Below are positions 43,509 to 44,573 of a DNA stretch of 64,000 nucleotides, one piece after another; the stretch's first letter is position 1, and each line of letters opens with the position of its first letter. The notes beneath the pieces are model-generated. The model was not told the DNA's origin. It saw nothing but the letters and a program-made list of their open reading frames with translations, and did no database searches. Position numbers and translations under genes: made by a program. This stretch comes from Arenimonas terrae. Its GTDB lineage: Bacteria > Pseudomonadota > Gammaproteobacteria > Xanthomonadales > Xanthomonadaceae. The stretch lies in assembly GCF_006265115.1 (NCBI RefSeq), contig NZ_SMDR01000003.1, positions 62,001 to 126,000 on the forward strand, read 5' to 3'.

Positions 43509-44573
43509 ATGTCCGATTTCGCCGCCGTCCACGCCTACCTGCGCGACCTGCAGGACCGCCTCTGCGCCGGTTTCGAGGGGGTGGACGGGGGCCGCTTCGC
43601 CCAGGACGAGTGGATCCGTCCGGAAGGCGGCGGTCACTCCCGGCATCCTGCCTCCCGTGACACTGGCCCGTCCCTGGGCGGCGGTCACTCCCGGCATCCT
43701 GCCTCCCGTGACACTGGCCCGTCCCTGGGCGGCGGTCACTCCCGGCATCCTGCCTCCCGTGACACTGGCCCGTCCCTGGGCGGCGGCGGCCGCTCCCGCG
43801 TCCTCAAGGAGGGGGCGGTGTTCGAGCAGGCCGGGGTCGGCTTCTCCGACGTTTCCGGCGCCACCCTGCCGCCCTCGGCCACGGCGCACCGGCCCGAGCT
43901 CGCCGGCGCGCCCTGGCGCGCGGTCGGCGTGTCGCTGGTGATCCACCCGCGCAACCCGCATGTGCCGACCGCCCACGCCAACGTGCGCTTCTTCGAGGCG
44001 CGGCCGGAAGGCCGCGACCCGATCTGGTGGTTCGGCGGCGGATTCGACCTGACGCCCTTCTACCCGGTGGATGCCGACGTCCGGCATTGGCACACGGTGG
44101 CGCGCGACCTGTGCGCGCCCTTCGGCGAAACCCGCTACGCCGAACACAAGGCCTGGTGCGACCGCTACTTCTTCCTCCGGCACCGCGACGAAGCGCGCGG
44201 CGTCGGCGGGCTCTTCTACGACGACCTGCACGCCGACGGCTTCGAGCGCTGCTTCGCCTACACGCGCGCGGTCGGCGACGCCTTCCTCGACGCCTACCTG
44301 CCGATCGTGCGCCGCCGCCACGGCACGCCCTACGGCGAGCGCGAACGCGAGTTCCAGCTCTACCGTCGCGGCCGCTACGTCGAGTTCAACCTGGTCTGGG
44401 ACCGCGGCACGCTGTTCGGCCTGCAGAGCGGCGGCCGCACCGAATCGATCCTGATGAGCCTGCCGCCGCGCGTTCGCTTCGAATACGCCTGGATGCCCGA
44501 ACCGGGCAGCGCCGAGGCGCGGCTTTCCGATTACCTCCGGCCGCGCGACTGGCTGGCCGAACTGCCGGCCTGA
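43509..44573 (+). CDS. hemF: oxygen-dependent coproporphyrinogen III oxidase with in-frame repeat insertion
   Basis: A 354-residue enzyme of haem synthesis (decarboxylates coproporphyrinogen III using O2). Family blocks are intact: GGGGRSRVL (91-99), [41 protein letters not shown], and [26 protein letters not shown]. Residues 40-90 are foreign to the family: three identical 17-residue repeats ([17 protein letters not shown]) encoded by three identical 51-bp units just before the Gly-rich motif. Removing them leaves 303 residues, the normal length. The frame is kept, so a full protein is made. Whether the loop affects activity is unknown. Confidence 0.93.
43626..43778 (+). repeat. 3 x 51-bp perfect tandem repeat inside hemF
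   Basis: Units 43626-43676, 43677-43727 and 43728-43778 are identical at every base. Each contains an imperfect palindrome (GTCAC, TCCC, GGCA, TCC, TGCC, TCCC, GTGAC; 43633-43661 in the first copy), giving a REP-like hairpin. Identity of the copies points to recent expansion or ongoing homogenisation. Confidence 0.95.

Follow-up and report, generated by a model that had tools for sequence, protein, structure and literature searches.

Protein-coding palindromic elements are best known from Rickettsia and Wolbachia, and intragenic REPs occur in some other bacteria. In a bacterium related to the one studied here, the GTAG repeats of Stenotrophomonas (SMAG, said to go back to Rocco et al. 2010) are reportedly abundant short palindromes. 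The Rickettsia palindromic elements (RPE) are 105-146 bp long with terminal inverted repeats according to Ogata et al. 2000, as cited in the passage of PMC2229807 that describes them, and the corresponding passages of PMC2229807 and PMC10969869 give them as 105-146 bp or about 150 bp, lying in frame in many Rickettsia genes. A guanylate kinase that carries such an element was active with changed affinity, one enzyme having been tested (PMC2229807, same passage). For intragenic REPs of the GTAG and CGTC superfamilies, Di Nocera et al. 2013 (PMC3733652) place them in recB and tRNA synthetase genes of Xanthomonas, in uvrA, DNA polymerase I and dnaE-type genes of various species, and in clusters within genes of Thauera and R. 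conorii that encode 43-82 residues; in the same paper the Stenotrophomonas SMAG repeats are GTAG-tagged and form families 6-9, and additional untagged REP families are held to probably exist. The bacterial MITEs ERIC, NEMIS and RUP are described as small non-autonomous repeats that can fuse to genes (PMC2229807, passage on MITEs).

The element described here, a 51-bp unit found in hemF of Arenimonas terrae, resembles RPE in that it is palindromic, with hairpins recognised by covariation, dispersed, in frame in unrelated conserved genes and also intergenic. Compared by description, it differs from RPE, with their 105-146 bp and terminal inverted repeats, in its length of 51 bp, its two hairpins, its occurrence in other bacteria and its head-to-tail arrays. 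Like the intragenic GTAG/CGTC REPs it is a short palindrome inside genes, but it carries neither the GTAG tag nor a fixed CGTC tag, no link to a RAYT (REP-associated Y1 transposase) was found in Arenimonas, and it consists of two unlike hairpins in a fixed 51-bp unit that also forms head-to-tail arrays. REPs of these superfamilies are mainly intergenic; in our sample of the element, which is not random, 74 of 116 copies are genic. Its likeness to SMAG is that of short palindromes, the element being untagged and SMAG GTAG-tagged. It is small and non-autonomous like the MITEs, but its 51-bp unit is made of two separate hairpins, and neither outer inverted ends nor a target-site duplication were seen for it, inverted ends of 29 bp being a property of one composite locus described below. 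In the literature searched, which lay outside supplements and subscription journals, no paper was recognised as describing the element. Since intragenic REPs are already known, also in Xanthomonas (PMC3733652), the element is a new untagged family, set apart from RPE and REPs by their descriptions, and not a new principle.

The window, by which we mean the whole stretch of DNA that was analysed (64,000 nucleotides, positions 62,001 to 126,000 of contig NZ_SMDR01000003.1), carries the element in hemF (Table 1). The original prediction had placed three identical 51-bp units in frame in this gene, before the GGGGRSRVL block, and both direct reading and Tandem Repeats Finder confirmed it, the latter reporting positions 43626-43786 of the window with period 51, 3.2 copies, 100% match and a score of 322, while the runner-up among its 19 rows scores 93. 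The frame is open from the ATG at 43509 to the stop at 44571-44573, giving 354 codons, and subtraction of the 51 repeat codons leaves the 303 residues that had been given for HemF without the repeats. Each unit encodes 17 residues and has GGC runs at both ends, and the last one ends immediately upstream of GGGGRSRVL. A palindrome had been expected in each unit, and GTCAC-TCCC-GGCA-TCC-TGCC-TCCC-GTGAC is indeed present in all three; overlooked at that stage was a second hairpin, GCCCG-TCCC-TGGGC, which follows after a four-base linker. Both hairpins of copy 1 recur at +51 and +102.

Table 1. The hemF gene and its repeat array, in positions of the window
Feature	Position	Strand	Basis
hemF, oxygen-dependent coproporphyrinogen oxidase, 354 aa including repeats	43509..44573	+	NF003727; PDB homologues 8t7w, 1vju, 2aex
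Three perfect 51-bp tandem units, register of the original prediction	43626..43778	+	Direct reading; Tandem Repeats Finder
Element copy 1, element's own register (GGTCAC ... GGGCGGC, 51 bp)	43632..43682	+	
Element copy 2	43683..43733	+	Covariance-model match G000:C3:105678-105734
Element copy 3	43734..43784	+	Covariance model
Hairpin 1 of copy 1: TCCC/TCCC internal loop between a 5-bp outer and a 4-bp inner stem; end loop TCC	43633..43661	+	
Hairpin 2 of copy 1: 5-bp stem	43666..43679	+	

The HemF of the window looks intact. It scores 428 bits against the NCBIfam model of oxygen-dependent coproporphyrinogen oxidase (NF003727, cut-off 297), with the best stretch of the match starting near the insert end, and solved homologues align separately to the segment that precedes the insert. 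G92, G94, R95 and R97, right after the insert, are among the columns that do not vary across an alignment of 35 homologues. In a structure model with a mean pLDDT of 79, residues 42-87 fall below a pLDDT of 50, between strands 31-37 and 91-100, so that the insert models as a disordered loop, in agreement with the earlier expectation that the inserts lengthen a loop of HemF. As the length of this loop varies in many family members, it seems tolerant of insertion. The polA gene adjoining hemF (window 44832-47579, minus strand) has no insert; in two other genomes the loop preceding MQVHDE in polA is occupied by the element, once in each orientation.

Alignment of the Arenimonas copies resolves the element into two hairpins, the first with an outer 5-bp and an inner 4-bp stem around a TCCC/TCCC internal loop and the second with a 5-bp stem, joined by a short, ACTNG-like linker. 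Among 69 distinct genic copies, columns 42-51 are paired in 69, columns 41-52 in 68 and columns 8-34 in 68, against 43.3, 46.3 and 49.3 in shuffles, respectively, and these shuffles ignore relatedness, so part of the excess can reflect subfamily ancestry. The folding energy of the hemF unit is ordinary (z -1.0 as DNA, -0.4 as RNA); it is weak as evidence, and the structure argument therefore rests on covariation between copies. Orthologous copies in prmA and gcvP have stems that differ yet match internally, the stems at one prmA site being GCGC/GCGC, GTGC/GCAC and GCAC/GTGC, and these matched changes could be due to compensatory change, gene conversion or re-insertion. Of 86 distinct copies, 46 have all six frames open, compared with 24% of dinucleotide shuffles, so that stop-free frames are enriched, not absolute. 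A search of Rfam gave no match at E<=1 in window positions 43400-44000 and none to the element itself at gathering scores at 10 element loci; the single match there is the sX13 sRNA, beside polA (L184, 1051-1167).

The original prediction had proposed a search for the unit in its own genome and in relatives, and this search found it recurring in other genes and many genomes. A covariance model was built from 12 copies, which match it by construction, and its E-values are rough; at E<=1 it marks 13 places in the window's own genome (G000) and matches in 19 of 27 Arenimonas genomes. Beyond the genus it matches 73 of 297 genomes of the family (24 of 54 genera, E<=0.01), 81 of 397 of the order (35 of 98 genera, E<=0.001) and 70 of 369 of the class (58 of 272 genera, E<=0.001), some genomes with at least 15 matches. 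Two genomes of another order, G692 (1.4 Mb) and G905 (2.4 Mb), have at least 15 matches each, and copies of G692 lie in tsaD, topA and glmM. The window's own genome holds an in-frame copy in rapA, whose first 35 bases are identical to those of the hemF unit, an in-frame copy in reverse orientation in mnmA, an in-frame copy in a glcD-like FAD-linked oxidase gene (L214, G000 C1:1513910-1513966) and an intergenic pair of copies 51 bp apart. At a further locus (L211 1472-1528, G000 C1:1503271-1503327) a copy lies where rsmH meets the next frame, ftsL-like by reading, and appears to supply the last rsmH codons. Further Arenimonas copies are either intergenic or sit in frame in polA and in the genes of an AMP-binding enzyme and an acyl-CoA dehydrogenase. 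The core pattern with up to three mismatches gives 93 matches in the own genome against 24 for a reversed control, and most of the three-mismatch places inspected there are not the element. One copy (57 bp, L155) had no blastn match in plasmids, phages or E. coli collections, and among viral contigs a single one has one exact pattern and none has the second pattern. An RHS-like gene region (L319 of G319) contains at least four copies.

To describe where the copies lie, 137 model matches were read, mostly at loci from the top of the score lists, and 116 were kept as separate copies; the other 21 were duplicates of a copy listed with a different locus, additional matches within one locus, or the weak L181. 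The 74 copies in frame inside genes fall under 33 gene-site labels, assigned by eye from the flanks, with most genes checked by one or more family searches, and 42 copies lie elsewhere. Genic sites include hemF, rapA, mnmA, polA, gcvP, mazG, uvrA, valS, aspS, leuS and dnaE (two sites), and also hisC, ddl, hutH, hmgA, purL, trpC, engB, prmA, hrpA and ribF. A copy counts as genic when its frame is open and the gene recognised, a definition that could overlook a broken gene holding the element out of frame. Copies of 57 nt make up 71 of the 74 genic and 22 of the 42 other copies; as the genic class is itself defined by an open frame, reading this length bias as proof of selection is partly circular, and we set it aside.

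When 60 proteins were compared with NCBIfam or Pfam, a single family match spans the element in 40 (hand count), and in the remaining 20 the match flanks it, sits to one side, or no family was assigned. From other orders of the class, 20 more loci were read, 10 by NCBIfam, 5 by Pfam and 5 that are mostly intergenic-looking. The NCBIfam match runs across the element in all 10 (tsaD, rsmE, ddl, topA, tgt, glmM, gcvT, mpl, valS and hrpB). By Pfam, a glycosyltransferase match spans it, clear matches to a valyl-tRNA synthetase, an FAD-dependent protein and an LPG synthase lie beside it, and one locus is without a family. Loci L225, L163, L246 and L390 gave no Pfam match.

Genic copies use five of the six frames and both orientations (hand tally). 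The commonest frame accounts for 19 of 35 gene-orientation entries and yields peptides such as AAHGCASVAGGRMPGAT, which are poor in bulky residues, and from this we infer milder folding effects. At the same loop of polA the element lies in opposite orientations in two genera (L175 and L184), and the same is seen at one loop of prmA (L331 versus L323-L325, L328 and L330). Such diversity of frame and orientation is a strong argument against protein loops having converged.

Filled and empty alleles show what is gained. Set against relatives without the insert, three genes (rapA, one polA and one hemF) are each longer by 17 codons, and the hemF of the window by three times 17. In base pairs it is +51 in rapA, +153 in the window hemF and +51 in that of G229, +51 or +48 in polA, where alleles were compared across genera, and +48 in mnmA, so that mnmA and the polA of G011 are the two gene alleles that gain 48 and not 51 bp. 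In rapA the insert lies exactly between RNRRA and AVGG in one of 19 Arenimonas genomes read, G002 having a different short insert, and in mnmA the element is present in 2 of 23, with other inserts at the site in three more. The hemF site could be read by pattern in 23 of 27 Arenimonas genomes; one (the window) has 3x51 bp, one has 51+36 bp plus a fragment, one has 36 bp, 17 have no insert, and in three there is a short stretch, perhaps a remnant. G020, outside this pattern-readable set, gave a covariance-model match of 42 nt in hemF. Unit number at hemF thus differs between species, from none through 36 bp and 36+51 to 3x51. In the wider family, where 21 of 30 hemF loci were readable, exactly 17 extra element residues occur in one (genus g51), other short loop extensions in 13 and none in 7. 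Conservation of the segment across the whole family had been raised as a possibility, and is not what we see. None of hemF, rapA and mnmA is filled in the sister genome G003, whose sisterhood with G000 has full local support in a three-protein tree that kept 22 of 27 genomes; on this tree the presence of the element at hemF and mnmA is patchy, so gain and loss remain ambiguous.

From these observations, the hemF units are very probably a non-autonomous mobile palindrome of ~51 bp, dispersed, in frame and locally multiplied, that works like the Rickettsia palindromic elements. The two-hairpin element is dispersed through the Lysobacterales/Xanthomonadales and other orders of the class, and the gene alleles that were compared differ by its gain or loss in multiples of three bases. 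With few stop-carrying frames and an Ala/Gly/Ser-rich commonest peptide, it can be carried by genes as a loop of ~17 residues. In hemF it sits in a beta-hairpin loop that tolerates it, and its later increase to three head-to-tail copies most likely came about through slippage or through unequal recombination of the GGCGGC ends, which make slippage plausible. HemF would have stayed functional with a disordered loop of 51 residues, probably with normal enzyme activity. As to entry in frame and later multiplication, the original prediction holds up, since the element is found elsewhere in the genome (rapA, mnmA, the glcD-like gene, the rsmH end and intergenic places) and the hemF of the sister G003 lacks it exactly; it is refined in that the element is not solely of the intergenic type, with 74 of the 116 copies of a non-random sample being genic. 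Movement may take place as a DNA hairpin, through an enzyme acting in trans. Among 109 copies no consistent target-site duplication was found, the strongest signals being small (4-mers 11 versus 3.9 expected, 3-mers 28 versus 19), and the rapA empty site has none. The transposase search, which covered Y1_Tnp in the Arenimonas genomes, found no mobilising enzyme.

Several other explanations have to be weighed. Several genera carry the element at the same sites of hemF, mnmA, gcvP, mazG and uvrA, as would be expected if an old peptide insertion had been passed on with each gene and repeatedly lost, without moving recently. We consider this rather unlikely, because the element is patchy among close relatives (1 of 19 Arenimonas genomes read for rapA, 2 of 23 for mnmA), occupies one loop of polA and one of prmA in either orientation, and has near-identical copies in unrelated genes, such as rapA and hemF of G000 over their first 35 bases.

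It also appears unlikely that we are dealing with a genuine GTAG- or CGTC-superfamily REP that a RAYT mobilises. The unit is short, palindromic, dispersed, equipped with hairpins and sometimes genic, intragenic REPs are reported from Xanthomonas, Stenotrophomonas and Thioalkalivibrio (PMC3733652), and 21 of 27 Arenimonas genomes have Y1_Tnp. However, GTAG/CTAC occurs anywhere in just 7 of 106 distinct copies and a terminal CGTC in 17 of 106, and Y1_Tnp does not follow the element, being present in 11 of 13 element-positive and 10 of 14 element-negative Arenimonas genomes (element counted at E<=0.001; p 0.65). G011, which has 9 element matches (E<=1), has no Y1_Tnp match at E<=0.001, and ten Y1_Tnp loci are without a clear element copy (best E 0.069). 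One locus of the own genome (L305 1100-2000, G000 C5:12960-13295) has a Y1 transposase gene with inverted flanks (AAATCCGGGGTCAGAGTG...) and no match to the element model.

Alternatively, the insert could be kept for a use of its own, for example as mRNA hairpins that tune translation or as a new protein surface, and the retention of hairpin pairing in genic copies and the repeated filling of the same loops would fit this. Five frames mean five different peptides, however, most Arenimonas relatives read have no insert at hemF, rapA and mnmA, and the HemF insert is disordered in the structure model; we regard usefulness as an improbable reason for its presence.

The 51-bp arrays recur at other genes. 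In genomes of another family of the order, arrays of period 51 were found in ribF (3.3 copies, 99%) and twice in hrpA (3.1 copies, 95%; 2.7 copies, 98%), and pairs of the 17-residue unit occur in mazG, a prolyl oligopeptidase gene and a murD-like gene. The hemF array of the window is thus one instance of something that the element does repeatedly. Its copy number of three could be an assembly artefact, as a perfect repeat of 153 bp is near short-read length, but this is very unlikely given comparable arrays at other genes of other genomes, some with units that differ (L313, 95% matches), and a hemF of A. metalli that likewise has more than one unit. As the origin of the hemF units, an ordinary minisatellite arisen by slippage with no mobile source, which the perfect tandem array, the GGC runs at both ends and the recurrence of 51-bp arrays might have suggested, is refuted by the same or similar 51 bp standing as a single copy in rapA, mnmA, an acyl-CoA dehydrogenase gene, other genes and intergenic places, and has hardly any probability left. 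A slippage minisatellite is likely to be the mode by which the element was amplified locally in hemF.

More speculatively, the mobile palindrome that we favour may be one of a class-wide set built for life inside genes, with a fixed 17-codon unit, few stops, no target duplication, exact gain and loss, and hairpins kept even in orthologues; this is a possibility that we put forward tentatively. If so, turnover of genic copies would be continuing, via a DNA hairpin and an enzyme yet to be known, and the essential enzymes of these bacteria would be a constant testing ground for short peptide loops. The family is short (17 codons in clean cases), occurs in many genera of one class and inhabits highly constrained genes such as dnaE, polA, topA, valS, aspS and hemF. 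It offers many natural pairs of filled and empty alleles in both orientations, including named isolates such as Arenimonas metalli, which makes testable both the movement of a palindrome with no visible transposase and the role of selfish DNA as a source of enzyme loops.

In the window's own genome, loci L210, L212, L213 and L215 give model matches of a similar kind, L213 being the one read across its whole length. It is an intergenic composite of ~177 bp (L213 1496-1672, G000 C1 about 1606895-1607071) with inverted ends of 29 bp (93%), and it holds a diverged element core together with further GGCATCCTGCC hairpins. The composite resembles a MITE belonging to this genome, possibly one with a relationship to the element.
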